From Blastopirellula marina (lineage in GTDB: Bacteria; Planctomycetota; Phycisphaerae; Sedimentisphaerales; UBA12454): a stretch of 36,400 nucleotides of DNA. The notes below the pieces were generated by a model, which was not told the DNA's origin, made no database searches, and worked only from the letters and a program-made list of their open reading frames with translations. The position numbers and the translations under genes are program-made. Below, one piece after another: positions 1,583-33,690 of this stretch (the first letter of the stretch is position 1; every line of letters begins with the position of its first letter). The DNA is taken from assembly GCA_020721975.1 (NCBI GenBank), contig DYLR01000003.1, positions 1 through 36,400 on the forward strand, written 5' to 3'.

Positions 1583-3862
1583 ATGTTCACAGCGTCTAAT
1601 ATGTTCACAACTCAACGCCGCGACGAGCCTGCGATAAACATAAACGGTCTTTCGACACTGCCCGCCACAGCAGCACAGGCTCTCAAACTCCTTTCCTGCC
1701 CGGACTGTGATAGAAAACAGCTTGCGGAAATTTTCTCAATAGATACTGCAATGACTGTCAAGCTGTGCATTGAAGCCGGCCAAACCATTTCTTATGCCCA
1801 GCCGGATTACAGTATATCCGGCCTTATCGAATGCTTTCCCGCAGAATCGCTTCGCAATATAGTCATTTCCACCGATATTACCGGGCTTGCAGAGCCTGTA
1901 TATATGCAAAATCTGTCCGCTAAAACCGATTTGCATATTTTCAGTGTTGCCTGTGCGTGTGCTGCTGCGATGTTGGCTGAACGGTTGAATGCCGAGATTA
2001 AGGAGCCGGCCTATATTGCCGGGCTGCTTTGTAAAATGGGTCTGCTTGCACTTCAGGACACGATGCCGCGAAGCGTGCAAAAGATGCTTGATATTGCCCG
2101 CGAAAAAAAGATGTCTCTGGCTGAAATTGAACGCGAGAATATAAACACGGATCATAACGTAATAGGCAGGCATCTTGGCGAAAAGTGGCGGTTTCCGCAA
2201 AATCTTGTTCTGGCTGTCTGGTTGCACGACAGTAGTACGGAATTTCTGCAAAGACAAATTGGGCACATGCCGCTGACTGCGATAGTTCACGCCGCCTGTT
2301 CAATTGCTGCAGCCGCTCATATCGGGCTAAGCGGCGATTTTAATCAGCCGCGAAATCCGCACAAAATTGCCCGCTGCATGGGCTGGGACGAATCGCTTAT
2401 TGACGAGATTATCACAAAACTGCCTGGCGAAATTGAAAGAAAATGCGCGATTCTTCGAACCGAGCCTCAAAGAGCAGCCGGCGAATATCACAGAATTATT
2501 GTATCGCTTGCCGGAGAGCTTTCAGAGCGGAGCTATAGGCTCGAGAATAAAAATCAGCGTCTCCAGGCCGGTACAATGCACCTTGAGTTCATCGCAGAGA
2601 CTCTTCAGAGCATAACGGCTTATCAGGACAGCGGCAGGTGCGCTGAAATGATAGCGTGCGGTCTGAAAAAATACTATCAGGCCGACGATGCGGTACTATG
2701 TCTTTTGCCGGCGGGCATAAATAGTTATGCCAGGCTCATATCGGCCGGTTATCTCGATGCACAAACAATATATCTCGACCGTTCCGGCAGCAGGATGATT
2801 GCGGAACTTCTCGCCGCAGCGGCAGATAAAATCAATTGTGAAAAAATCATATCGTTTGTAAAAGACCGAACCGGCGCGAAATTCAGCCCCGAGCGGACCT
2901 TGTTCGTTTCTTTAATCAATGACAAAAGGCATGTCGGGGCGATTATAATAGACTCTTCGCAAATGCCGGCTGCGGTTATAAAAACATTCGACAGCGCAGC
3001 AGCCGTTATCGCTTGGATAATTTCGGGAATAACCGCCGCGGAGCTTAATAAAACGCTCAGCGAGACTATGGCAGGAATGCTCGGCGCCGGACAATCGCAG
3101 GAACAAGCACACGAACAAACACAGGAACAGCCGCAGTCCACGCACAAACAACCGCCGCAGCCGAACGATATCGAATCATCTCCGTCTTCGCAGGATGCAT
3201 TATATAACGCCCTTGGCGAAATGGCCGGGGGAATTGCTCATGAATTAAATAATCCGTTGGCGGTGATTTCCGGGAGAGTTCAACTGCTTGAGCAGACCGA
3301 AACGGATGAAAACAAACGCCGGATATTGGCGCAAATAAACCGGCGAACACAGGAAATCTCGGATATTATTACCAACCTGATGCAGTTTGCAAAGCCCGGC
3401 GACACGGAAATCAGAACCGTCTCTCCGCTGCTTATAATAGACAGTGCGGTTTTGGCTACTGAAAGAAAACATGGCATAAATCAGCTTGAAGTAAGCCTGA
3501 GCGGTATTGACAATCTGCCCGATATTCAGGCCGACCCGCGGCAGGTTTCACAGGCGATAGCCAATATTCTTTCAAATGCCGTGGAATCTTATCCATCCGG
3601 CAGCGGTCCGATAGAAATCACCGGCAGTGTGGATACGAACAACAATACGCTATCGATTGCCGTTACCGACCACGGCTGCGGTATGGACGAGCAATGTATT
3701 GCCGCAGCTGTGCAGCCTTTTTACTCTAACAAGCCCGCAGGCAGACAACTGGGAATGGGACTTGCACACGCAAAACGCCTGCTTGAAGCAAATCACGCAA
3801 AACTTACGATAACCTCTGCCGTGGGACAGGGTACTACCGCAACGATAGCATTTAACATTTAA
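1583..3862 (+). CDS. HDOD domain - GAF-like - histidine kinase (HisKA/HATPase) protein
   Basis: N-terminal HDOD-like region, Q/E/P-rich linker, then GGIAHELNNPLAVISGRV (H box), NAVESYP (N box), DHGCGMD and GMGLAHAKRLLE (G boxes). Confidence 0.85.
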   Translation: MFTASNMFTTQRRDEPAININGLSTLPATAAQALKLLSCPDCDRKQLAEIFSIDTAMTVKLCIEAGQTISYAQPDYSISGLIECFPAESLRNIVISTDITGLAEPVYMQNLSAKTDLHIFSVACACAAAMLAERLNAEIKEPAYIAGLLCKMGLLALQDTMPRSVQKMLDIAREKKMSLAEIERENINTDHNVIGRHLGEKWRFPQNLVLAVWLHDSSTEFLQRQIGHMPLTAIVHAACSIAAAAHIGLSGDFNQPRNPHKIARCMGWDESLIDEIITKLPGEIERKCAILRTEPQRAAGEYHRIIVSLAGELSERSYRLENKNQRLQAGTMHLEFIAETLQSITAYQDSGRCAEMIACGLKKYYQADDAVLCLLPAGINSYARLISAGYLDAQTIYLDRSGSRMIAELLAAAADKINCEKIISFVKDRTGAKFSPERTLFVSLINDKRHVGAIIIDSSQMPAAVIKTFDSAAAVIAWIISGITAAELNKTLSETMAGMLGAGQSQEQAHEQTQEQPQSTHKQPPQPNDIESSPSSQDALYNALGEMAGGIAHELNNPLAVISGRVQLLEQTETDENKRRILAQINRRTQEISDIITNLMQFAKPGDTEIRTVSPLLIIDSAVLATERKHGINQLEVSLSGIDNLPDIQADPRQVSQAIANILSNAVESYPSGSGPIEITGSVDTNNNTLSIAVTDHGCGMDEQCIAAAVQPFYSNKPAGRQLGMGLAHAKRLLEANHAKLTITSAVGQGTTATIAFNI

Positions 3863-4381
3863 CATTTAACATTCAACATTGAACATTTAACACTGTTTAG
3901 CCGCCGTCGCCGCGCCGGCGTATCTTTTAGCCTGCCGGCCAGTCCGGCAGGTTTCTTCCTCGCAGGCCTGTCCTGCGGGTCAGATAAGCGTAAAACTTAA
4001 AGCGTAAAACGAAAAACTTTTGAATAGCTCGTCCGTCAAAGGCGGACTCCATAATTTTACGTTTTTGGTTTTAAGTTTTTCATTTTGTTGACCCCGATGA
4101 CAGGCATCGGGCTGACAATTTCCCCGTGGGACTTTTTAAAACCGCGGATTTTTTTAGGGTATAGGGTATAGGGTATAGAAACATCCAATAACCAAATTTC
4201 AACATCCATTTAACAACCAAAATTCAATAACCAACATCTCTGCGAAATAGTTGATTATTGAAAATTGGTTATTGGTTATTGTTTGGATGTTGTGTTATTG
4301 GATGTTGGATGTTTATAACCCCTATACCCTATAAAAAATCTGTGTTCACAATGTTAAGTGTTCAATGTTCAATGTTAAATG
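3849..4381. repeat. Composite nested foldback of 7-nt arrays (copy C2)
   Basis: Left [CATTTAA]n (3849-3890) mirrors right [..TTAAATG] (4346-4381); TAGGGTA x3 (4155-4175) mirrors CCCTATACCCTATA (4319-4332); inner AACATCC/AATAACC units mirror GGTTATT/GGATGTT units. Confidence 0.8.
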
Positions 4382-6349: not shown

Positions 6350-6720
6350 TATTAGGGTATATAGGGTATAAGATATAGGGTTTAGGGTATAGTTCTACTA
6401 CGCTATATTGCCTTTAGCTATTGTAATCTAATTTCTTATAATATAAGGATTTAAATCCGAAATTCGAATATCGAAATCCGAAACAATATCGAATATTCAA
6501 AACTAAAATGCTCAAAACAAAACCCAAAAACAAAGAACTCTTCGTTTTGGTTATTTTGATTTGGAATTTTGAATTTGTTTTGGATTTCGGATTTCGTGCT
6601 TCGGATTTTTAGTCTGTTTCGTTTCCATATTACAAATAGCGTTGTAGTAATAGGATACAGAGGAATATCAAAAATCAAAAACCAAAAACCAAATATCAAA
6701 AATACCAAAAATCAAAAAGA
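6350..6720. repeat. 7-nt-period arrays (TATAGGG, AAATCCG/TTCGGAT, ATCAAAA families) with a foldback
   Basis: AAATCCG|AAATTCG|AATATCG|AAATCCG from 6453, mirrored by TTTGGAT|TTCGGAT|TTCGTGC|TTCGGAT ending at 6606; ATCAAAA-type units at ~6664-6715. Confidence 0.8.
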
Positions 6721-7088: not shown

Positions 7089-8351
7089 ATGAATCAGGAA
7101 CTTTTGAGAATCGTTGACAACATTGCTCGTGACAAGAATATCGACAAGGAATCCGTATTTATGGACCTTGAGTCGGCAATGGTATCAGCTGCCAAAAAGC
7201 ATTTCGGAAATCCCGATCTGGACATTGCGGTAAAAATAGACCGCAGCAGCGGCGATATATCAGCCTTAAAGGAAGGCCAGCCAATAGATGTTCGCCAGCT
7301 CGGCAGAATTTCCGCCCAGACAGCAAAGCAGGTAATGATACAAAAAATCCGTGCCGATGAGCGCAGCAGCATATATTCGGAATATATCGAACGCAAAGGC
7401 GAAATAATCACAGGCACGGCCGTGCGATACGAAGGCGGCACCCTTATCGTTAATCTTGAGAACCGCACCGAGGCCATAATGCCGAAATCAGAACAAATCA
7501 GCGGTCAGAACCATCACCCCGGCGAAAAAATAAGATCGCTGATTCTCGACGTGCGGGAAACTTCCAGCCAGGTAAAAGTTATCCTCTCCCGAACACATCC
7601 GGATTTTATACGCAGACTGTTTGAACTTGAAGTGCCGGAAGTGGCCGAGGGTATAATAGAAATAAAGGCAATGGCACGGGAAGCAGGCTACCGCACCAAA
7701 ATAGCGATGCTTTCCAACGATTCAAAGGTTGATGCCGTCGGGGCCTGTGTCGGGGTGCGCGGCAGCAGAATTAAAAATATAGTCGATGAACTCGGCGGCG
7801 AAAAAATCGATATTGTGCGATGGAACGAGTCTTCGCAGAATCTTATCGCCAACGCTCTAATGCCGGCCAAAGTTTCTCAGGTTGCCCTGTGTTTTGAGCT
7901 TGGCGGTGCAACAGTCGTAGTGGACGACGACCAGCTCAGTCTTGCCATTGGCAAACACGGCCAGAACGTGAGGCTTGCGGCAAGACTTACCGAATGGGAC
8001 ATCGATATTCTTACCCCGGACGAATATAATGCCGAAATTGAACGGTTATCGAACGGACTGAAAGGCCTGCCGGAAGTTGACGATACTTTTGTGGATAAAC
8101 TTATAGCGCTGGGCGTTATATCGGTGTTTGATTTGGCGGAAATCGGAGTTCAGCCGCTTGTTAAGGAAATAGGTATAACCGAAGAACTGGCAAGGCAGAT
8201 TGTCGCAAGAGCCGAGGAAGAGGCCAAAAAGCAGGCCGCTGAGCCGGCCGTGCCTACCGCCGCCGAATCGTTGTTGTCCAAAGACTCATCCGGCAAAAAA
8301 TCAGAAAGACCGGAAAAATTGGAAAGAATGGATATCGCCGAGCAGATATAA
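7089..8351 (+). CDS. nusA: Transcription termination/antitermination factor NusA
   Basis: NusA N-terminal domain, S1 and KH motifs (GACVGVRGSRIKNIVDELGGEKIDIV; LAIGKHGQNVRLAARLTEWDIDI). Confidence 0.97.
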   Translation: MNQELLRIVDNIARDKNIDKESVFMDLESAMVSAAKKHFGNPDLDIAVKIDRSSGDISALKEGQPIDVRQLGRISAQTAKQVMIQKIRADERSSIYSEYIERKGEIITGTAVRYEGGTLIVNLENRTEAIMPKSEQISGQNHHPGEKIRSLILDVRETSSQVKVILSRTHPDFIRRLFELEVPEVAEGIIEIKAMAREAGYRTKIAMLSNDSKVDAVGACVGVRGSRIKNIVDELGGEKIDIVRWNESSQNLIANALMPAKVSQVALCFELGGATVVVDDDQLSLAIGKHGQNVRLAARLTEWDIDILTPDEYNAEIERLSNGLKGLPEVDDTFVDKLIALGVISVFDLAEIGVQPLVKEIGITEELARQIVARAEEEAKKQAAEPAVPTAAESLLSKDSSGKKSERPEKLERMDIAEQI

Positions 8352-8369
8352 CTTTGGAGCAGAAAATAA

Positions 8370-11045
8370 TTGGCTATTACCCGTGTACACATCCTGGCTA
8401 AGGAACTTGGCGTTCAGAGCAAGGCCATCGTTGACAAATGTCAGGCCGAGGGTCTCGACATTAAAAATCACATGTCAACGATATCTGCAGGTCTTGCCGC
8501 TACGATACGCGAGTGGTTTAGTGATGGTGAACACACTACAACCGTTGAAACCACTGAACGTGTTGACCTTGAAAAGGCGCGCATAAAAAAGCCGCATAAA
8601 AAAGCTGCGGCAGCAGTGCCGCCGGAGGAGGAATCGACAGACAAACAAATAACCGCTGTGCCGGAGCCGCCGGCAGCAGAGGCAATTCAAACAGACTCTT
8701 CACACATTGCTGTAATGCAGCCGTCGCAAACGGCAGCAGCGGAAACTGCCGGGCCGGCTGTGGCGACAGGGTCATCCGCAGTTGTTGTACAGCCGCCGCC
8801 GGCGCCGCCGAGCGGGCCGGTTATAGTAGCGCCACCGCCTGCCGTTAAACCTGTGCTGATTGTGCCTGCCGGTCCGAAACTCGAAAAACCTGCTCCGGTA
8901 AAACTCACCGGCCCCAAAATTATCAGGGTCGAGGCCCCGGAGCCGGTAAGAAAACCTCCGCCGAGCCGGCACAAGCCGCCGCAGATTCATACGGGCAAGG
9001 CAAAATTTGACGCCAAACCGACAGAATCGGTGATGCAGACCGCTCCGCCGGAGCTGATTACTCCCGGCCGAGGCAAAAAATCCAAACGCAAACACAGATA
9101 CGGCGATGCCGGTGAGGACAGTCACGAAACATTACCGAAAATCCGGCTGATGAAAGACCGTGATATTGAAGAACGCCGTGCAAGACTTGAAGCCGCAGGC
9201 GCTGAAAGTCTGCGAATGCGTCCGACAAGAAAAATCGAAGCCCGGCACAAAAGCGACCTTCAGCAGCAGCACAGGCCGCAGACCGCTCATATTACCGAGC
9301 CGATTACGGTAAAGGACCTGTCCAATGCCCTGGCTGTCAAAACTGCCGATATAATCACGAAACTGATGCAACACGGCGTTATGGCTACGGCCAATCAGAT
9401 ACTAAGCACCGATTCGGCTGAAATTGTCGCGCTGGATTTCGGGACTGAACTTATCGTTGACCGCAGAAAAAGTCTCGAGGAGCAAATAGCCGAAGAGTTC
9501 CGGAACCGCGTCGGCAAAAACGCCGAAAGGCGTCCGCCGGTTGTTACAATGCTCGGACACGTTGACCATGGCAAAACTTCGCTTCTGGACAGAATACGCA
9601 GGGCGGATGTGGCGTCCGGAGAGGCGGGCGGAATAACGCAGCACATCGGAGCATATCAGGTGGCATTCGGCGAAAAGGGCGAAAAGAAAATTACGTTTCT
9701 TGATACGCCCGGCCACGAGGCTTTTACCGCTATGCGGGCAAGAGGCGCGAATATGACCGATATTGTCGTGCTGGTAGTGGCTGCCGACGACGGAGTAATG
9801 CCTCAGACTGTCGAGGCCATACATCACGCAAAAGCAGCAGGGGTTGAAATAATCGTTGCTCTGAACAAAATAGACCTGCCGGGAGCGAATCTGCATCGCA
9901 TTTACGGCCAGCTCGCCGAGCACGAACTTACGCCTGCCGAGTGGGGCGGCAATACCGAAGTGGTCAAGACCAGCGCAATTACGGGCCAGGGCATTGAGGA
10001 TTTGCTTGAACATATATATTACATCTCCGACCTGCATGAATATAAGGCCGACCCGACTGTTCCCGCAACCGGCTGGGTTGTGGAGGCGAAAATGAGTCCG
10101 ACGCAGGGGGCGGTAGCAACGCTGCTTGTGAAGGAAGGCATTCTAAAGATAGGCGATATCGTGCTTGCCGGAGCGGCTTTTGGAAGGGTAAGAACGCTTA
10201 TCGATTCGCACGGAAAGAAAATTCGCCAGGCCACCAGTTCAATGCCTGTGAGCATATCCGGCCTTAGCGACGTTCCCCAGGCCGGCGACAGATTTTACAG
10301 GCTCGATGATTTGAACAAAGCCAAACTTGCCGCTGAAGACAATCAGATGCGGCAGAGAACTGAAAATCTTGTAAGCCGTTCAAAGGTTACGCTTGATAAT
10401 TTGTTCAGCCAGATTGAGGCCGGCAATATCAGAGAACTCAATCTTATCGTGCGGGCGGATGTGCAGGGTTCGGTTGATGTGCTTAACAAATATCTCAATG
10501 AGCTAAGTACGCCTGAAGTAAAGATTCGTATTTTGCACTCTGATGTCGGCGGAATTACCGAAGGCGATGTGGTTTTGGCCGAGGCTTCCGAGGCTATTAT
10601 CATCGGCTTTAATGTTGTGCCGGAGGAGCAGGCGCGAAAAATCGCAGAGGCCAAAGGCATAGATATACGCCTTTATAATATTATATACCGAATTACTGAA
10701 GACCTTAAAGCTGCGATGTCCGGTATGCTTGAGCCTGAGGAACGCCAAAAGCATATCGGCAGGCTCGTCGTCAGGGAGGTATTCAAAATCAGCGGCGTCG
10801 GTACGGTAGCGGGCTGTTATGTCGGCGACGGCGCAGTTTACAGAAATTCAAAAATTCGGCTGATAAGGAATAACGTTGTTGTCAAAGACGGTTTGAACAT
10901 TGATTCGCTCAAGCACTTCAAGGAAGACGTCCGCGAGGTAAAGCAGGGTCTGGAATGCGGCCTGAAAATAGCCGGCTTTGACGACATTAAAAAGGATGAT
11001 ATTTTTGAGGCTTATGAAATAGAAAAAGTCGCACGGACGATTTGA
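8370..11045 (+). CDS. infB: Translation initiation factor IF-2
   Basis: G domain [43 protein letters not shown] start; long Pro/Ala-rich N-terminal region. Confidence 0.97.
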
Positions 11046-12298: not shown

Positions 12299-12403
12299 AG
12301 GGTTTAGGGTTTAGTTTTTTACTATCCCCTATTTACTCTACCCTATTCTCTAATTGATTTTAGATTTTGGATTTGTTTCGGGTTTCGGATTTCAAGTTTC
12401 GGA
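12299..12403. repeat. 7-nt-period array, 15 consecutive in-phase units
   Basis: AGGGTTT|AGGGTTT|AGTTTTT|TACTATC|CCCTATT|TACTCTA|CCCTATT|CTCTAAT|TGATTTT|AGATTTT|GGATTTG|TTTCGGG|TTTCGGA|TTTCAAG|TTTCGGA. Confidence 0.85.
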
Positions 12404-12485
12404 TTTATATTGAGTTTTGTTTTTCAGGATTGGCCGGATTTCTAAATTAAAGGCAGGATATATATAGGAAACGGATGTCTTGTTG

Positions 12486-21553: not shown

Positions 21554-21625
21554 AAATTTTGGATTTTAGATTTTGGATTTTGGATTAAGAAGATTACAGA
21601 TTTAAGATTGCAAATTTAAGACACA
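21554..21625. repeat. 7-nt-period array between the NuoF-like and hydA genes
   Basis: AAATTTT|GGATTTT|AGATTTT|GGATTTT|GGATTAA then AGATTAC|AGATTTA|AGATTGC|AAATTTA|AGACACA. Confidence 0.85.
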
Positions 21626-21644: not shown

Positions 21645-23564
21645 ATGTCAGAAGAAATAAAAACAGACAGAGCGCCGGTAAGTCAGCGGGCGCATAAGGT
21701 AAGTGCGGGAATCAACGGCGACGCCCTCGGTGCAAAGGTAACCGTTCAAATAGACGGCAATGAAATTAAAGTGCCGCTGGGAACTACGATTCTTGAAGCG
21801 GCCAACGAGCTGGGCATTCGTATTCCCACGCTGTGCAATCATGCGGACTTGTGTGTTGCCGGCGTATGCAGAATATGCGTTGTCGAAATTGAAGGTTCAA
21901 GGACGCTTCAGGCAAGCTGTGCGTATCCCATAACCCAGCCCATCAAGGTTAAAACACACAGCCAGAAGGTACGCCAGGCTCGCAGGCATATACTCGATTT
22001 GCTTTTGAGCAAACATTACGGCGAATGTTATGCGTGTTTCCGCAATAACAACTGCGAACTTCAGGCACTGGCAAAGGAATACGGCGTTGACTTTTTCCGG
22101 TTCGGCCATCCGTCCAAGCCGTTTTATGAAGTTGACCGCAGCAGCTATTCGGTCATACGCGATATGAATAAATGCATACTTTGCAGACGCTGTGTGCGGA
22201 CGTGTATCGATTTGCAGGAAGTCGGAGTTCTCGACGTTGAAAACCGCGGCTATCAAAGCAAGGTCGTTACCTATATGGACAAGCTGCTCGGCAGTGTTGT
22301 GTGCATCAATTGTGGACAGTGCATCAATCGCTGCCCGACCGGAGCTCTGCGGGCAAACGACCCGACCGATGAAGTATGGGCGGCTATCGACGACCCCAAA
22401 AAGCACGTCGTGATTCAAACCGCCCCAAGTCCGAGAGCTGCTATCGGCGAATGCTTCGGGCTTGAGCCGGGCAAGGCTCTTACGTTTGAACTGAATACCG
22501 CGCTGCGACAGTGCGGATTCGATAAGGTTTTCGATACGAACTTTTCGGCGGATTTGACTATTATTGAAGAAGGCACGGAACTGCTTTTGCGACTGTTCAA
22601 AAACCTGGTCAAAGGCGACCACAGCCAGCCTCTGCCGCAATTTACAAGCTGTTCGCCCGGGTGGGTGAAGTATATCGAACACTTCTATCCTGAACTTCTG
22701 CCGCACATGTCCTCGGCCAAAAGTCCTCAGCAGATGTTTGGCGCGGTTATTAAAACTTATTACGCTAAAAAGCAGGGGATAGACCCGAAAGATATTGTAA
22801 CAGTTGCGCTGATGCCTTGCTCGGCGAAAAAATTTGAATGCAACAGGCCTGAAATGTGCGACAGCGGGTACAAGGATATCGATTACGGCCTGACAACACG
22901 CGAAATGGCACAAATGATAAGCGAAGCCGGCATTGACCTGCCAAATCTGCCTAAGAGCGATTTTGACGACCCGTTCGGTACCGCGACCGGCTCAGGCATT
23001 ATTTTCGGCGCAACCGGCGGCGTAATGGAAGCTGCGATTCGCAGCGTTATCGAGCTTGTGTGCGGAATTCGCATTGAAAAATTGTTTGAACACGCCCGTG
23101 TTATGCCTGTGCGGGGTTTCGAGGGTGTGCGATACGCGGAGCTTGCCTTGCCGCAGATAGGGCCTGTGCCTGATTTGCTCAAGGGTCTGGTAAAGGACTG
23201 GGAATGGATTAAAGGCGCAACGCTGAAGGTCGGAGTATGCCACGGCACGGCCAACGCCAAGAAAGTGCTTGACGATATTAAGGCCGGCGGACAGTTCAGC
23301 CAGTGCCATTTTATAGAATTTATGGCCTGTCCCGGCGGCTGCCTGGGCGGCGGCGGTCAGCCGATACCGACAAGCCCGGAAATTCGTGCAGCCAGAGCCC
23401 GCGCGATTTATTCAGAAGACGAATCATACCAGATTCGCAAATCGCACGAAAACCCGGCTGTTGTGGAACTTTATCAGAAATTCCTCACCGACGGGCCTTG
23501 CGGACATATAAGCCATAAACTGCTGCATACGCATTATCTCTCCAGAGGCAAATATATTGCGTAA
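21645..23564 (+). CDS. [FeFe]-hydrogenase catalytic subunit, HydA/HndD type
   Basis: N-terminal [2Fe-2S] (CNHADLCVAGVCRIC), two 4Fe-4S motifs, H-cluster motifs TSCSPGWVKYIEHFYPELLPHMSSAKSPQQMFG, MPCSAKKFE, EFMACPGGCLGGGGQP. Confidence 0.97.
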   Translation: MSEEIKTDRAPVSQRAHKVSAGINGDALGAKVTVQIDGNEIKVPLGTTILEAANELGIRIPTLCNHADLCVAGVCRICVVEIEGSRTLQASCAYPITQPIKVKTHSQKVRQARRHILDLLLSKHYGECYACFRNNNCELQALAKEYGVDFFRFGHPSKPFYEVDRSSYSVIRDMNKCILCRRCVRTCIDLQEVGVLDVENRGYQSKVVTYMDKLLGSVVCINCGQCINRCPTGALRANDPTDEVWAAIDDPKKHVVIQTAPSPRAAIGECFGLEPGKALTFELNTALRQCGFDKVFDTNFSADLTIIEEGTELLLRLFKNLVKGDHSQPLPQFTSCSPGWVKYIEHFYPELLPHMSSAKSPQQMFGAVIKTYYAKKQGIDPKDIVTVALMPCSAKKFECNRPEMCDSGYKDIDYGLTTREMAQMISEAGIDLPNLPKSDFDDPFGTATGSGIIFGATGGVMEAAIRSVIELVCGIRIEKLFEHARVMPVRGFEGVRYAELALPQIGPVPDLLKGLVKDWEWIKGATLKVGVCHGTANAKKVLDDIKAGGQFSQCHFIEFMACPGGCLGGGGQPIPTSPEIRAARARAIYSEDESYQIRKSHENPAVVELYQKFLTDGPCGHISHKLLHTHYLSRGKYIA

Positions 23565-23633
23565 AGCGTTGAGCGTGAATAGTGAAGCGTCTTGCGAGAT
23601 ACGAGATACGCTTCACGAAATACGAGATACGTA
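23564..23633. repeat. 7-nt-period array with an internal perfect 9-bp inverted repeat
   Basis: AAGCGTT|GAGCGTG|AATAGTG|AAGCGTC|TTGCGAG|ATACGAG|ATACGCT|TCACGAA|ATACGAG|ATACGTA; GTGAAGCGT (23582-23590) vs ACGCTTCAC (23608-23616). Confidence 0.85.
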
Positions 23634-26413: not shown

Positions 26414-26525
26414 AGATTTCTGATTTTAGATTTTAGATTTTGGATTTTGGATTGAAACCGCGGATTAACGCGGATTTACACGGATTTTTCTTAAATCTTA
26501 AATCTTAAATGTTCAATGTTAATGC
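26414..26525. repeat. 7-nt-period arrays flanking a CGCGGATTAA-type element
   Basis: AGATTTC|TGATTTT|AGATTTT|AGATTTT|GGATTTT|GGATTGA, then CGGATTAACG CGGATTTACA CGGATTTTTC, then TTAAATC|TTAAATC|TTAAATG|TTCAATG|TTAATGC. Confidence 0.85.
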
Positions 26526-26526
26526 T

Positions 26527-27594
26527 ATGCTTGATGAAAATATTACAATCACAGAAATAGAATCGTGGCTTCGGCAGGAAAACGCGGCAGAGCTTGAAAA
26601 ACTCTGGGCAGCGGCGGACCGGGTTCGCAGGGAAAATGTCGGCGACGAAGTTCACCTGCGAGGGCTGATAGAGATAAGCAATTACTGCGTGCGGTCGTGT
26701 GCTTACTGCGGACTGCGTAAGGAGAATAAGCAGCTCGACCGCTATCGAATGAGCGCAGAGGAAGTAATTGAATGCGCACATAAAGCGCATAAGCTCGGCT
26801 ACGGCACGGTGGTAATGCAGGCAGGCGAGGATTACGGCATCCGTGCGCAGTGGCTTGCCGATATTATAAAGACGATAAAAAACGAACTGCCGCTGGCGGT
26901 TACCCTGAGTATGGGAGAACGGCCGCAGGAAGATTTGTGTTTATGGCGCAAAGCCGGAGCAGACAGATATTTGCTGCGTTTTGAGACTTCCGATTTGAAA
27001 CTCTATAAATTGATTCATCCGGATTTGGCAAATAAAACTTCCGACCGTTTTGCAATATTGAAGTTTTTGCGAGAACTCGGCTATGAGGTCGGCGGAGGGG
27101 TGATGATAGGCATACCCGGGCAAAGCTGCGCCAGTCTTGCAAATGATATTGATATGTTCCGAAAATGTGATTTTGATATGATTGGCTCTGGGCCGTTTAT
27201 TCCCAATCTGCTTACGCCGCTGGGTACGGGCGAATTAAAGCCAGATATTGCCCCTGCGGACCAGGTTCCTGCAACAGAACTGATGTGTTATAAAGTTGTT
27301 GCACTTGCAAGAATTGTATGCCCGCAGGCAAATATCCCAAGCACAACGGCTCTTGCTACATTGAACAAGGAAACCGGCAGAGAGCTTGGTTTGTCTCGCG
27401 GAGCTAATGTGGTTATGCCGAACTGTACGCCGCTGAAGTATCGTGTAAAATATGAAATTTACCCCGGCAAGGCCTGTATAAATGAAACAGCCGAGCAGTG
27501 CCAGATGTGCCTTGCAGGCAGAATTTACAGTATCGCACGCACTATCGGCAAAGGACAGGGCGGAAGAATTCGAACACGGATTAACGCGGATTAA
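26527..27594 (+). CDS. hydE: [FeFe]-hydrogenase maturase HydE (radical SAM)
   Basis: GLIEISNYCVRSCAYCGLRKENKQLDRYRMSAEEV. ORF track starts at 26509, inside the repeat; Met at 26527 is the likelier start. Confidence 0.92.
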   Translation: MLDENITITEIESWLRQENAAELEKLWAAADRVRRENVGDEVHLRGLIEISNYCVRSCAYCGLRKENKQLDRYRMSAEEVIECAHKAHKLGYGTVVMQAGEDYGIRAQWLADIIKTIKNELPLAVTLSMGERPQEDLCLWRKAGADRYLLRFETSDLKLYKLIHPDLANKTSDRFAILKFLRELGYEVGGGVMIGIPGQSCASLANDIDMFRKCDFDMIGSGPFIPNLLTPLGTGELKPDIAPADQVPATELMCYKVVALARIVCPQANIPSTTALATLNKETGRELGLSRGANVVMPNCTPLKYRVKYEIYPGKACINETAEQCQMCLAGRIYSIARTIGKGQGGRIRTRINAD

Positions 27595-27616
27595 CACTGA
27601 TATTGCGATTGTTGAA

Positions 27617-28270: not shown

Positions 28271-29578
28271 CTATTTTTTTGCAAACATTTCCCTGATTTC
28301 ACGGTTTATGCGCACCGAACACCAGTTGCGTCCGCACATTGTGCAGTAATCTGCATTGGGCGATTCGGCTATTCCTGAATTTTTGCATGCCTCGATGTGC
28401 ATTTCTCCGGCAGTCTTTGGGTCAAGTGAACTGCCGATATGCTTTTGCCAGTCAAGATTCGCACGAGCAATGCTCAATTGTCTGTCGCGCTCGGCTGCCC
28501 CAGGCAGACCGCGAGCAACATCCGCTGCGTGAGCGGCAATCTTGGCTGCGACCACACCGGCACGCACGTCCTCGGCGTTAGGCAATCCCAAATGTTCCCG
28601 CGGGGTTACATAGCACAAAAATGATGCGCCATAATAAGCCGCCGCAGTTCCGCCTATCGCGCTTGTAATATGGTCGTATCCGGGCGCAATATCCGTAACC
28701 ACCGGACCAAGCACATAGAAAGGCGCTCCGTCGCAGATTTCAGCCTGTATTTTCATATTGTATTCAATCTGATTGAAAGGCACATGTCCGGGACCCTCAA
28801 CCATAACCTGACAGCCCTGTTGTCTTGCTCTTTGTGTAAGTTCGCCGAGCGTGCGCAATTCGGCGATTTGTGCCTCGTCGGTGGCGTCGGCAATACAGCC
28901 CGGGCGCAGCCCGTCGCCGAGACTAAAAGCCACATCATATTCCCTCATTATCGCACAAAGCTCGTCAAAAAGCTCGTACATCGGGTTTTGGCGATTGTGA
29001 TAGAGCATCCATTTTGCAAGCAGTGCACCGCCTCGGGAGACTATTCCGCAAACCCTTTTTTGCACCAGCTCGATATGCTCCCGCAAAAATCCGGCGTGAA
29101 TTGTAAAAAAATCAACTCCCTGTTTAGCCTGCTTTTCAATCACATCAAGAATTACCCTGTGCGTGATTTCTTCAACGCCGTGCGATACTATTACTTCATA
29201 AATCGGCACGGTGCCGAACGGCACGGGACATTGACTGATAAGCTCGGTTCGCACCTTGTCGAGGTCGCCGCCAGTGCTTAAATCCATTATCACGTCCGCA
29301 CCGGCGTCAATTGCCATTCGCATTTTTACAATTTCTTCGTCGGTAGTAGAACGTGCCGAGCTTGTGCCTATGTTGGCATTTATTTTGGTTGTGCAGCAGC
29401 GTCCGATACCGATAGGCGTAAGATTGTGCGCAAGGTGAAGCCGGTTGGCCGGGACTATGAGTCTGCCTTTTGCGATTTCTCTCATGACAAGCTCTTCGTT
29501 CAGCGACTCGGCCTTTGCAACGGCTTTCATTTCATTTGTTATTTTTTCCGCACGTGCGGATTGCAATTGTGTAGGCAT
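28271..29578 (-). CDS. thiC: Phosphomethylpyrimidine synthase ThiC family
   Basis: NLTPIGIGRCCTTKINANIGTSS, DAGADVIMDLSTGGDLDKVR, FTIHAGFLREH, GPGHVPFNQIEYNM, C-terminal CTMCGRNWC. Confidence 0.92.
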   Translation of the reverse strand: MPTQLQSARAEKITNEMKAVAKAESLNEELVMREIAKGRLIVPANRLHLAHNLTPIGIGRCCTTKINANIGTSSARSTTDEEIVKMRMAIDAGADVIMDLSTGGDLDKVRTELISQCPVPFGTVPIYEVIVSHGVEEITHRVILDVIEKQAKQGVDFFTIHAGFLREHIELVQKRVCGIVSRGGALLAKWMLYHNRQNPMYELFDELCAIMREYDVAFSLGDGLRPGCIADATDEAQIAELRTLGELTQRARQQGCQVMVEGPGHVPFNQIEYNMKIQAEICDGAPFYVLGPVVTDIAPGYDHITSAIGGTAAAYYGASFLCYVTPREHLGLPNAEDVRAGVVAAKIAAHAADVARGLPGAAERDRQLSIARANLDWQKHIGSSLDPKTAGEMHIEACKNSGIAESPNADYCTMCGRNWCSVRINREIREMFAKK

Positions 29579-29581
29579 TTT

Positions 29582-29826
29582 AAATCAAATATCAAAAATC
29601 TAATATCAAAAATAAAATATCAAAAATAAAAGAACCAGAGGGCAGAGGAGATATAAATATCCAATATCCAATATCCAATAACACAACATCCATTTAATAA
29701 CCAAAATTCAATAACCAACATCTCTGCGAAACGGTTGTTTGATTATTGAAAATTGGTTATTATTTGGATGTTGGAATTTGGTTATTGGATGTTCATATTC
29801 CTATACCCTATACCCTAACTCAAAAA
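29582..29826. repeat. Long 7-nt-period array, 35 consecutive in-phase units (copy C3)
   Basis: AAATCAA|ATATCAA|AAATCTA|ATATCAA|...|ATCCAAT x3|...|CCAACAT|CTCTGCG|AAACGGT|TGTTTGA|TTATTGA|AAATTGG|TTATTAT|TTGGATG|TTGGAAT|TTGGTTA|TTGGATG|...|CCCTATA|CCCTAAC. Confidence 0.88.
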
Positions 29827-29879
29827 ACTCTTTTTTTATGTGTTCTTATTCGTGTTCATTCGTGGCCGGGCAAGTTATC

Positions 29880-31895
29880 TCAGATTGTACGAATTGTTGC
29901 TCCGAGTCTCGACACCAGTTCGTCCAAAATTGTTTTTTCAAATCCGTCAACCTGTTCGTGCGTTAAAGTACCGTCATCGTCTCGGAATTTCAGAACAACT
30001 GTAACGCTTTTTTTGCCCGGCTCGATAGGTTTGCCCCGATAAATGCCCTGAAACTGCACTTCCTGAAGTTCGTCGATGTTTTTACGATTTATCGTTGAAG
30101 CGATTTTATCCCACGTAACCGCCTCGTCGAGTATCAGCGAAAGCGCCCGTTCCACAGCCGGGAATCTCGGGACAGGCTTGATTTTAATTGTTTCTGCCGG
30201 CAAATCGAGCAGTTTTTCAAACTCAAGCTCGGCAGCCGAAACCGCTGACCCGTTCAAATCGAAATTGTCGCAAAGATTTTTATTGACTACTCCTGCTGTT
30301 CCGACTTGTGAACCATTTATTACAATTGCCGCTGCCGCATCCGACCATACGCATTTTGCCGGTACAAAATCAATTTTCACATTTTTATTTATTTTCCGGA
30401 CAGCCGCTTCGATAACGCCTCGCAGGAATCGTAAATCGCTGTCGCAGGCCATTGCCAGAGATGTTTTTTCGTGCTGATGCGGCGGCTGTTCAGTGCGGGC
30501 AAAACAATTCGCCAGCTCATAAACCCGCACAGGCCTGTTGCCTGCGTGATAATTTGTCTGCATTACCGCAAGCAAAGAACCGATAAGCGTCTGTCGCAGC
30601 AGATTGGCGTTTTTGCGGGTGATATCCGTAACGGCAAGATGTTCCTGGGGGTCTTTTCCGCTGGTTAGTTTTGCGCAGTTGTTGTCGATAAATGTTACAT
30701 TTATCGTTTCATAAAAGCCGCAGCTTTGCACAGCGCTGCTTATTTCGCATATTGCCTTGTGCCGCCTGTCAATCGGGGCTACTTCAATTTGCAGTTTGTG
30801 TCTTACAGGCACCTTATCATAGCCGTAATGGCGGGCTACTTCCTCTATGAGGTCAACTTCACGGTAAACATCATGCCGCCAGCTCGGCACGGTGCAGAGT
30901 ACTTCGCCGTCGGACCGGCTTTGCGGCTCAAAGCCGAGCCTGTGCAGAATATCGAAAACTTTTTCGCCGGGTACATCAATCCCAAGCAATTTCTTCATTC
31001 GGGAATGCCGCATGACAACGGTCATTTGTTGCGGCCTGGAGGGATAACAGTCAATTATGCCGTCAACGGCTGTGCCGCCTGCCAGCAGGTGAATAAGCTG
31101 GATGGTTCTTTCGCCCGCCCATCCGACCCGCTCGATATCGACATATCTTTCAAATCTAAAACTTGCTTCTGATGAAATCCCCAAAGATCTTGATGTTGTG
31201 CGGACGCCGGCCGGATTGAAAGCAGCCGATTCAAGCAGCACATCAACGGTTTTTTCGCTCACCTCGCTGTCAAGTCCGCCCATTACGCCTGCAATAGCTA
31301 CCGGCGACTCGGCGTCGCAAATCATAAGCATATTTGAACCGAGCCGGCACTTTGTACCGTCAATTGCCGTGAGGTTTTCATCAGGCCCGGCAGTGCGAAC
31401 TATAATCTGTCCACCCTTTAACCTGGCGAAATCAAAGGCATGTGTCGGCTGACCTGTTTCCATCATCGCAAGATTTGTTGCATCAACAACATTGTTTACC
31501 GAACGCATACCGACGGACTGAAGACGATTTACGACCCACTGGGGGCTTGGGCCGATTTTTACACCGCGAATAAGCTTTGCCGTGTATCGCGGGCAAAGAT
31601 TTGCATCGTTAATCGAAACTTTGACATACTGTGAAACTTCTCCGCTGTTTTGTGATATTTTCACGTCCGGTATTCGCAGTGTCCTGCCTGTGGCCGCGGA
31701 AAGCTCCCTTGCTATGCCGATATGACTGAGACAATCCCCACGATTGGATGTTATTTCCACGTCGAGCGTCATATCATCGCCAAATGGCTCAATGCTTTCG
31801 ATAGGCAGACCGATATTCATAAGAATTTGCCCGACCTGCTGAGCGGAAAGGTCAATATCCACGTATTCTTTGAGCCAGTTGAAAGAAATCTTCAT
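29880..31895 (-). CDS. pheT: Phenylalanyl-tRNA synthetase beta subunit, short form
   Basis: MKISFNWLKEYVDIDLSAQQVGQILMNIGLPIESIEPFGDDMTLDVEITSNRGDCLSHIGIARELSAATG; C-terminal anticodon-binding-like domain. ORF track start is 31919. Confidence 0.94.
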   Translation of the reverse strand: MKISFNWLKEYVDIDLSAQQVGQILMNIGLPIESIEPFGDDMTLDVEITSNRGDCLSHIGIARELSAATGRTLRIPDVKISQNSGEVSQYVKVSINDANLCPRYTAKLIRGVKIGPSPQWVVNRLQSVGMRSVNNVVDATNLAMMETGQPTHAFDFARLKGGQIIVRTAGPDENLTAIDGTKCRLGSNMLMICDAESPVAIAGVMGGLDSEVSEKTVDVLLESAAFNPAGVRTTSRSLGISSEASFRFERYVDIERVGWAGERTIQLIHLLAGGTAVDGIIDCYPSRPQQMTVVMRHSRMKKLLGIDVPGEKVFDILHRLGFEPQSRSDGEVLCTVPSWRHDVYREVDLIEEVARHYGYDKVPVRHKLQIEVAPIDRRHKAICEISSAVQSCGFYETINVTFIDNNCAKLTSGKDPQEHLAVTDITRKNANLLRQTLIGSLLAVMQTNYHAGNRPVRVYELANCFARTEQPPHQHEKTSLAMACDSDLRFLRGVIEAAVRKINKNVKIDFVPAKCVWSDAAAAIVINGSQVGTAGVVNKNLCDNFDLNGSAVSAAELEFEKLLDLPAETIKIKPVPRFPAVERALSLILDEAVTWDKIASTINRKNIDELQEVQFQGIYRGKPIEPGKKSVTVVLKFRDDDGTLTHEQVDGFEKTILDELVSRLGATIRTI

Positions 31896-31971
31896 AGTGA
31901 ATCCAAAACCGTAATCCAAATTACAAAACCGACAGTTTATGCTTTACCGGCTTGTCTGTCAATGATTTAGG

Positions 31972-32510: not shown

Positions 32511-33257
32511 GTGCGTATTTTACTGACAAATGACGATGGAATTTTTGCTCCGGGGATAGCCGCGCTGCATAAGGAGCTTGTAAAACTCGGAGAAGTTATG
32601 GTTGTCGCTCCGGCTGAACACATGAGCGGGGCCGGACACAGCATAACTATCTGGCAGCCTTTACGCTGCGAAAGTGTTCAGATAGCAGGAGCTTTCAGCG
32701 GTTACAGCGTATGGGGCTCGCCTGCGGATTGCGTAAAGCTGGCGGTAAATCAGCTTTGCAGGCCTGCGCCGGATTTGGTCGTTTCAGGCATTAATGATAA
32801 TGCAAATGTCGGCATCAATGTGTATTATTCCGGCACAGTGGCGGGGGCTGTTGAAGGAGCATTTTTCAGAATACCTTCAATAGCTGTAAGTCTGCAAAAG
32901 GATGAGCCTATGGAATTTGAAACCGCATCAAAGCTGGCAATTGAGACGATAAAAAAACTGCTGCCGCTGGAAAAAGGAACGGTTACAAATATAAATATTC
33001 CAAAACTTTCCAAAGGTATGCCCAGGGGCATTGTTGTTGTGCCGCAGTCCACTACCGGATTTGAAGAACATTATGAGCCGCTAAAAAACGAGGCCGGCCA
33101 GACCGTTTATCAGCTTACCGGCGGACCACATCGCGAAAACGGCCTTGCCGATGTAACCGCGCTGGAACAGGGCTATATTACTGTAACCGCGTTAAACTAT
33201 GATTTGACTAATCACGAACATCTCGATATGCTCGATAGTAAACTGAAAAGAATGTAG
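32511..33257 (+). CDS. surE: 5'/3'-nucleotidase SurE
   Basis: RILLTNDDGIFAPGIAALHKEL, VVAPAEHMSGAGHSIT, SGINDNANVGINVYYSGTVAGAVEG; GTG start. Confidence 0.96.
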   Translation: MRILLTNDDGIFAPGIAALHKELVKLGEVMVVAPAEHMSGAGHSITIWQPLRCESVQIAGAFSGYSVWGSPADCVKLAVNQLCRPAPDLVVSGINDNANVGINVYYSGTVAGAVEGAFFRIPSIAVSLQKDEPMEFETASKLAIETIKKLLPLEKGTVTNINIPKLSKGMPRGIVVVPQSTTGFEEHYEPLKNEAGQTVYQLTGGPHRENGLADVTALEQGYITVTALNYDLTNHEHLDMLDSKLKRM

Positions 33258-33292
33258 AAGAAAGAATGTAGGATGCATAAGAAAGAAGTTTT
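33251..33292. repeat. Short 7-nt-period array starting at the surE stop codon
   Basis: AATGTAG|AAGAAAG|AATGTAG|GATGCAT|AAGAAAG|AAGTTTT. Confidence 0.65.
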
Positions 33293-33655: not shown

Positions 33656-33690
33656 GTTTCACGAGATACGCTTCACGAAATACGCTTAAC
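33656..33690. repeat. 7-nt-period array, same family as 23564-23633
   Basis: GTTTCAC|GAGATAC|GCTTCAC|GAAATAC|GCTTAAC. Confidence 0.8.

Follow-up and report, generated by a model that had tools for sequence, protein, structure and literature searches.

Tandem heptanucleotides between genes have been described in several bacteria, and the GGGAATC repeats of Xanthomonas and the TAACTGA repeats of the Beggiatoaceae are the closest precedents for the arrays considered here. The GGGAATC and GGGGATT heptamers of Xanthomonas and Nostoc are intergenic, lying on the coding strand just 3' of stop codons and, in mirrored form, ahead of the following gene (Rehm et al. 2015, PMC4692102); in Xanthomonas they form about 70 convergent (inverted) pairs and are fewer between divergent genes (PMC4692102). 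The 7-nt unit, the post-stop position, the inverted pairs and the rarity in divergent spacers all recur in the present genome. However, in Xanthomonas and Nostoc each lineage has a single G-rich motif, which forms quadruplexes and mostly keeps its place between species (PMC4692102), whereas the motifs here are numerous and mostly AT-rich, and we observe long hairpins that have cores, nesting, and presence or absence at the orthologous junctions examined. Likewise, the TAACTGA repeats of Beggiatoaceae and Cyanobacteria are direct heptamer repeats at gene junctions, strongly strand-biased and in some cases lying over the upstream stop (MacGregor 2015, PMC4679880), as are arrays in our genome, but theirs is a single motif without hairpin pairs, and related heptamers are seldom repeated (PMC4679880).

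Other systems share part of this picture. Geobacter metallireducens also has dispersed tandem 7-nt elements (GGACCGG, MTYCTGA), of which class 3 MTYCTGA is drawn as strand-switching pairs; unlike ours, these have few units, have been proposed as IHF/HU or RNA regulatory sites and are not shown as insertions (PMC2700814). The constant-size, variable-sequence satellites of Subirana and Messeguer are similar in that length is kept while sequence is not, with several families per genome, although in the part of that account available to us the units are of 20-21 and 52 nt and palindromic pairing is not reported (PMC8161180). Finally, MITEs and REPINs are, like the elements described below, short, dispersed, palindromic and non-coding, and one of our families has terminal inverted repeats; the heptad-periodic arms set ours apart, as does the failure to find a partner transposase in 1.09 Mb. 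We found no description in the literature of many motif families per genome forming hairpin arms with empty orthologous sites, and nothing relevant for the literal repeat sequences. The arrays thereby join two literatures, that on intergenic heptamer repeats of unexplained origin (Xanthomonas, Nostoc, Beggiatoaceae, Geobacter) and that on small palindromic mobile elements.

The thiC-pheT hairpin and related elements

The window, by which we mean the whole 36,400-nt stretch of DNA that was analysed, is one contig of a 1.65 Mb genome assembly (89% complete, 120 contigs), of which 1.09 Mb was analysed with genes taken from simple ORF calls. The identities of the two genes bounding the focal spacer, thiC (28271-29578, minus strand) and pheT (29880-31919, minus strand), were confirmed by NCBIfam. 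The spacer consists mostly of one long hairpin with heptad-repeat arms, with a separate ATATCAA array at its left. In a single-strand DNA fold, positions 29640-29808 form a single hairpin with a 15-nt loop (-34.5 kcal/mol, z -6.5), and none of 200 shuffles was equally stable. When the arrays are written out heptad by heptad, those on the left are mirrored on the right in inverted symmetry (AAATCCG/CGGATTT, AACATCC/GGATGTT, TATAGGG/CCCTATA); neither this symmetry nor the dispersal of the elements had been remarked on in the initial annotation. Such folding is common among the arrays, 42% of 48 array clusters having a hairpin z below -3 as against 6% of control spacers. The elements of the window, with the evidence for each, are as follows; a strand is given where one was assigned.

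29582-29631: ATATCAA/AAATAAA heptad array, outside the hairpin (Tandem Repeats Finder period 14/7; heptad identity 5-6 of 7)
29640-29720: left arm of the B-type hairpin, of ATCCAAT / CATCCAT / AATAACC heptads (single-strand DNA fold)
29721-29735: B-type loop or core CTCTGCGAAACGG, common to other B copies (B core pattern matches; alignment)
29736-29808: right arm of the B-type hairpin, of GGTTATT / GGATGTT heptads, with CCTATA heptads at the end (fold and core pattern)
157-270: B-type copy with decayed arms (core match at 196; lag-7 z 4.6; hairpin signal absent)
3846-3894, plus strand: ATTTAAC heptad array crossing the TAA stop of the histidine-kinase-like gene 1583-3862 (array listing)
4155-4335: B-type hairpin with a TATAGGG outer shell, an AACATCC/AATAACC inner shell and the core of 29721-29735 (lag-7 z 7.7, hairpin z -7.7)
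6396-6649: full-length family A element of 254 bp, ends TACTACG...CGTTGTAGTA (paired terminal inverted repeats)
6453-6608: family A heptad hairpin (AAATCCG ... CGGATTT), the part conserved in relatives (hairpin z -5.4)
12299-12406: composite of a C-type TAGGG hairpin, GATTTTRG and an A right arm, between terminal-repeat remnants (lag-7 z 6.6)
21556-21616, plus strand: sense-strand ATTTTRG array at the junction of NuoF-like and [FeFe]-hydrogenase genes (junction of 91 nt here)
23564-23633, plus strand: CGAGATA/CGCTTCA heptad array, 3' of the hydrogenase gene (lag-7 z 5.9)
26414-26525, plus strand: sense-strand ATTTTRG array, then CGCGGATTAA decads, then TTAAATG heptads, at the hydG-hydE junction (array listing)

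Period and phase of the arrays

The 7-nt period that the initial annotation had noticed is a property of the genome. Over dinucleotide shuffles, the thiC-pheT spacer (29582-29826) has a lag-7 z of 7.9 and a lag-14 z of 6.5. Throughout the 1.09 Mb, lag-7 identity in intergenic DNA reaches 0.2998, whereas the dinucleotide-shuffled controls give 0.268 (z 25.6); harmonics are present at lags of 14 (z 19.7), 21 (z 11.3) and 28, while a lag-7 excess over the same kind of shuffle was looked for in coding DNA and not found. A scan of intergenic DNA for periods 4 to 15 returned 116 arrays of period 7 (5 in shuffles) and 62 of period 14 (none in shuffles), and no other period in this range gave arrays clearly above shuffles. 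Of ten sites initially listed in the window, eight have lag-7 z values of 4.6 to 8.3, but two (33251-33292, z 1.9; 33656-33690, z 2.1) are marginal. The array listing also bears out the presence of several motif families. As in STRR-type repeats, tandem 7-nt units are restricted to intergenic DNA; instead of the one or few fixed unit sequences of that type, however, there are many unrelated units in this genome and others in its relatives.

The further proposal, that one 7-nt frame runs through these motif changes, did not survive. The spacer had been read as 35 heptamers without frame slip, a division that is uninformative because any 245 bases split into 35 heptamers; from heptad to heptad, both 29631-29660 and the core (CTCTGCG/AAACGGT) show an identity of only 1-3 of 7, which is at chance, and the frame is therefore undefined there. 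Genome-wide, the best relative rotation of 57 neighbouring array pairs is spread evenly over 0-6, being 0 in 8 of them, as expected by chance. For GG-anchored pairs of dissimilar heptads, distances in multiples of 7 are no commoner than in shuffles, and a few other anchors (GAT, AGA) give a slight excess. On the rotation and mod-7 tests we reject a phase shared across motif families. Phase is kept within one continuous drifting run, as in ATTTTAG-ATTTTGG-ATTACAG, because its motifs are relatives. What had looked like families simply chained are for the most part shells that follow one another along hairpin arms, or else elements placed beside or inside one another. Because elements can abut or nest, and inner and outer arm shells can carry different heptads, one spacer seems to run through several motif families.

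Dispersed copies and orthologous junctions

Family A occurs at up to 56 places in the 1.09 Mb, the weakest of them partial or B/E-like, and such counts are partly inflated, since palindromes match both strands and the families grade into each other. Families B and E are similarly dispersed with conserved cores, the B core pattern CGAAACGGTTGTTTGATTATTGAAAATTGG having 13 matches in the genome when up to 7 mismatches are allowed. The A hairpin, of about 157 bp, often lies within an element of 245-255 bp bearing terminal inverted repeats (TIRs), and the best A copies in this genome are for the most part inside such elements with inverted TACTACAGCGC-type ends. Eight TIR pairs of family A were found in the 1.09 Mb, namely six of 245-255 bp and short forms of 112 and 47 bp. 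Short non-coding elements with TIRs at both ends, one criterion for a MITE, were found for family A only, and not for B, E or ATTTTRG. Full-length A elements are flanked on one or both sides by TTAA or TTAA-like sequence, which in this palindromic context may be either repeat or target, and their target-site duplications are not clean. Nested and composite elements also occur, with an AGA-heptad interior (L118) or a C hairpin (L077, L092) enclosed by an A outer arm.

The 47-bp palindrome (L106 8318-8364) has family A ends without a heptad interior, and is either a deletion product or an empty host element. Some contigs end within inverted-end repeats (L033 26-48, L041 33-51, L088 33-51, L115 34-52); the assembly therefore breaks there and the element copy number is underestimated.

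The A hairpin (query positions about 57-214 of 254) is matched in 27 of 40 relatives, at up to 30 places in each, and among the matches listed these fall essentially within query positions 40-231 and never include the terminal repeats. All four relatives sampled for periodicity have a period-7 excess (one, G004, also period 8), with heptad hairpins of the same form built of other motifs (ATTGAAG, AAGATTG). Across the phylum, AAATCCGAAATCCGAAA is present in 39 of 392 genomes drawn, as against 2 for its reversed control.

One operon junction is "empty" in G010, G006, G009 and G008 (2, 2, 9 and 9 nt, respectively). In G001 the same junction holds a 94-nt heptad hairpin, whose arms recur at five other sites with variable cores; in G012 (L189) an 88-nt hairpin of 8-nt units (GCACNAAG / CTTNGTGT); in G011 a 102-nt unrelated insert without clear structure; and in the host (L049 4705-4829) a 125-nt heptad-armed composite with inverted (TIR) ends. 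These lengths and contents thus amount to four different insertions 3' of one stop codon in four of eight genomes, the inserts of 88-125 nt being heptad-armed in two cases and octad-armed in one. The [FeFe]-hydrogenase junction with its ATTTTRG array, 91 nt in the window, measures 15 nt in the G051 orthologue and 16 nt in that of G028, and the genes overlap in G014. Empty sites in relatives, a further MITE criterion, are therefore found for heptad-bearing elements generally and for the TIR-bounded composite at L049. The infB-rbfA junction was too irregular and was left out of this comparison. Operon junctions of this lineage have been repeatedly rebuilt by different elements.

From the observed periodicity, hairpins, dispersed copies, empty orthologous sites, differing junction elements and 3'-end location (see below), we conclude that the arrays are probably the arms of a lineage-specific set of small, non-coding, palindromic, MITE/REPIN-like non-autonomous elements inserting at gene 3' ends. 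The palindromes would spread by transposition in trans and persist neutrally where neither neighbouring gene is broken, and their heptad arms may arise and change length partly via 7-nt slippage. Should heptads prove to be arms of such insertions, strain comparison could test the long-standing intergenic 7-nt excess of bacteria, as gain or loss of whole hairpins versus slippage. From the repeated insertion into a gap of 2-9 nt we favour some targeting to stop codons, and not just survival there. A much broader claim would be that of an order-wide, perhaps phylum-wide, class of mobile hairpins conserved only in the 7-nt arm period and the inverted symmetry, actively targeted 3' of stop codons, with unrelated members re-hitting one junction; we regard it as rather doubtful, but, if true, the mobilising or recognition machinery would read period or hairpin, not sequence.

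An autonomous partner with A terminal repeats was sought and not found in the 1.09 of 1.65 Mb, in which many contigs end inside repeats. The sole clear Y1 (RAYT-like) transposase, of 231 aa (L125 1192-1887, G000 contig C34), was rejected as mobiliser, its flanks bearing AATAGGGGACAGTCACCTATT-type palindromes and not heptads, and the REP/REPIN-with-RAYT arrangement (a palindrome of 20-40 bp, a GTAG/CGTC tag and a flanking RAYT gene) is not that of the heptad elements.

Gene ends, strand and other explanations

Spacers measuring 60-300 bp contain arrays in 25 of 60 convergent cases and in 6 of 64 divergent ones; where the spacer is tandem, the arrays lie at a median of 17.5 nt from the stop codon. 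In tandem spacers the ATTTTRG arrays are sense in 19 cases and antisense in 1, with 14 of the 19 at most 15 nt from the stop and some providing the stop codon itself; AGATTAC arrays are sense in 5 cases and antisense in none. This strand bias, that of ATTTTRG being the best argument, would suit a role at the RNA level, with sense heptads or hairpins between a stop and the next start acting as 3'-end protectors, terminators or U-rich translation enhancers, and such a role has been proposed for the likewise strand-biased TAACTGA repeats between genes in Beggiatoaceae (PMC4679880). The stability of the hairpins, at the focal spacer as in the other clusters, points the same way. Nevertheless, we consider this explanation unlikely. 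Orthologous junctions in related species have no element or a different one, and eight of the ATTTTRG arrays are in convergent spacers, where there is no start for them to act on. When copies of families A, B and E are aligned, almost all stem changes are one-sided and there are hardly any compensatory pairs, which fits freely mutating descendants of one ancestor and not a structure under selection; as an Rfam search also returned no family except a tRNA, a selected RNA structure was rejected. Nor are in-array stop codons above composition, and frame-universal stop cassettes (7 being 1 mod 3) were discarded on a stop density of 0.066 in stop-proximal arrays, below the 0.072 of shuffles. The reading as inserted hairpin arms nonetheless has its own difficulties: neutral insertion does not explain the 19:1 bias, transposition does not account for the period common to unrelated families, and certain arrays (ATTTTRG, CGAGATA) do not obviously form hairpin arms.

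Growth in 7-nt steps, which had been suspected at the outset, is supported by the gaps between paralogous copies, 56 of which measure 7 nt, with 6 nt seen 11 times and 8 nt 15 times, making 7 about four times commoner; 1-nt gaps are also frequent, and there is a smaller peak at 4 nt. Slippage of the polymerase from a local seed in each spacer would make the arrays ordinary microsatellites grown in place, and heptameric repeats are over-represented in many bacteria, for which slippage has been suggested (PMC4692102). As a full account this is very unlikely, for unrelated spacers have non-periodic cores and heptad order in common, the arrays are palindromic, and one orthologous junction can hold differing elements.

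Only the period is common to the several motif families, and this would be expected were the heptads sites of a DNA-binding protein stepping by 7 bp, such as a ribbon-helix-helix protein polymerising like ParB/Omega of pSM19035, which organised or segregated the chromosome; the Omega operator indeed consists of unspaced direct or inverted 7-bp sites, with 7 bp per dimer (PMC9499535). We give this little credence, since the motifs differ widely within one genome and among relatives and the array positions are not conserved; a search of the genome for the Omega family (PF07764) had no match, but its positive control gave no signal either. The TTTAGGG- and TATAGGG-like units and the unit length fixed across several motifs might point to a telomerase-like reverse transcriptase that adds heptads from a template; this is scarcely credible and was rejected, because the 89% complete genome has no PF00078 (RVT_1) match in a search that was positive in three control genomes.

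Other short repeats were noted in the vicinity of the arrays and elsewhere in the window. Decad repeats (CGCGGATTAA, AACACGGATT, ATTCGTGTTC) follow or lie beside heptad arrays at 26459-26486, 27573-27601 and 29845-29865, and represent a further period, of 10, which is rarer than that of 7. Short GC-rich palindromes (GCCGCCGTCGGTACGACGGCG, CCCCGCGATTTATTCGCGGGG, CCGCAGG..CCTGCGG) adjoin heptad elements at 3888-3980 and, near B copies, in L101, L115 and L086; these are probably further small repeat families. A 13-nt unit, CGCATAAAAAAGC, is present in two copies at 8572-8605, where ORFs 8200-8586 and 8370-11045 (infB) overlap.
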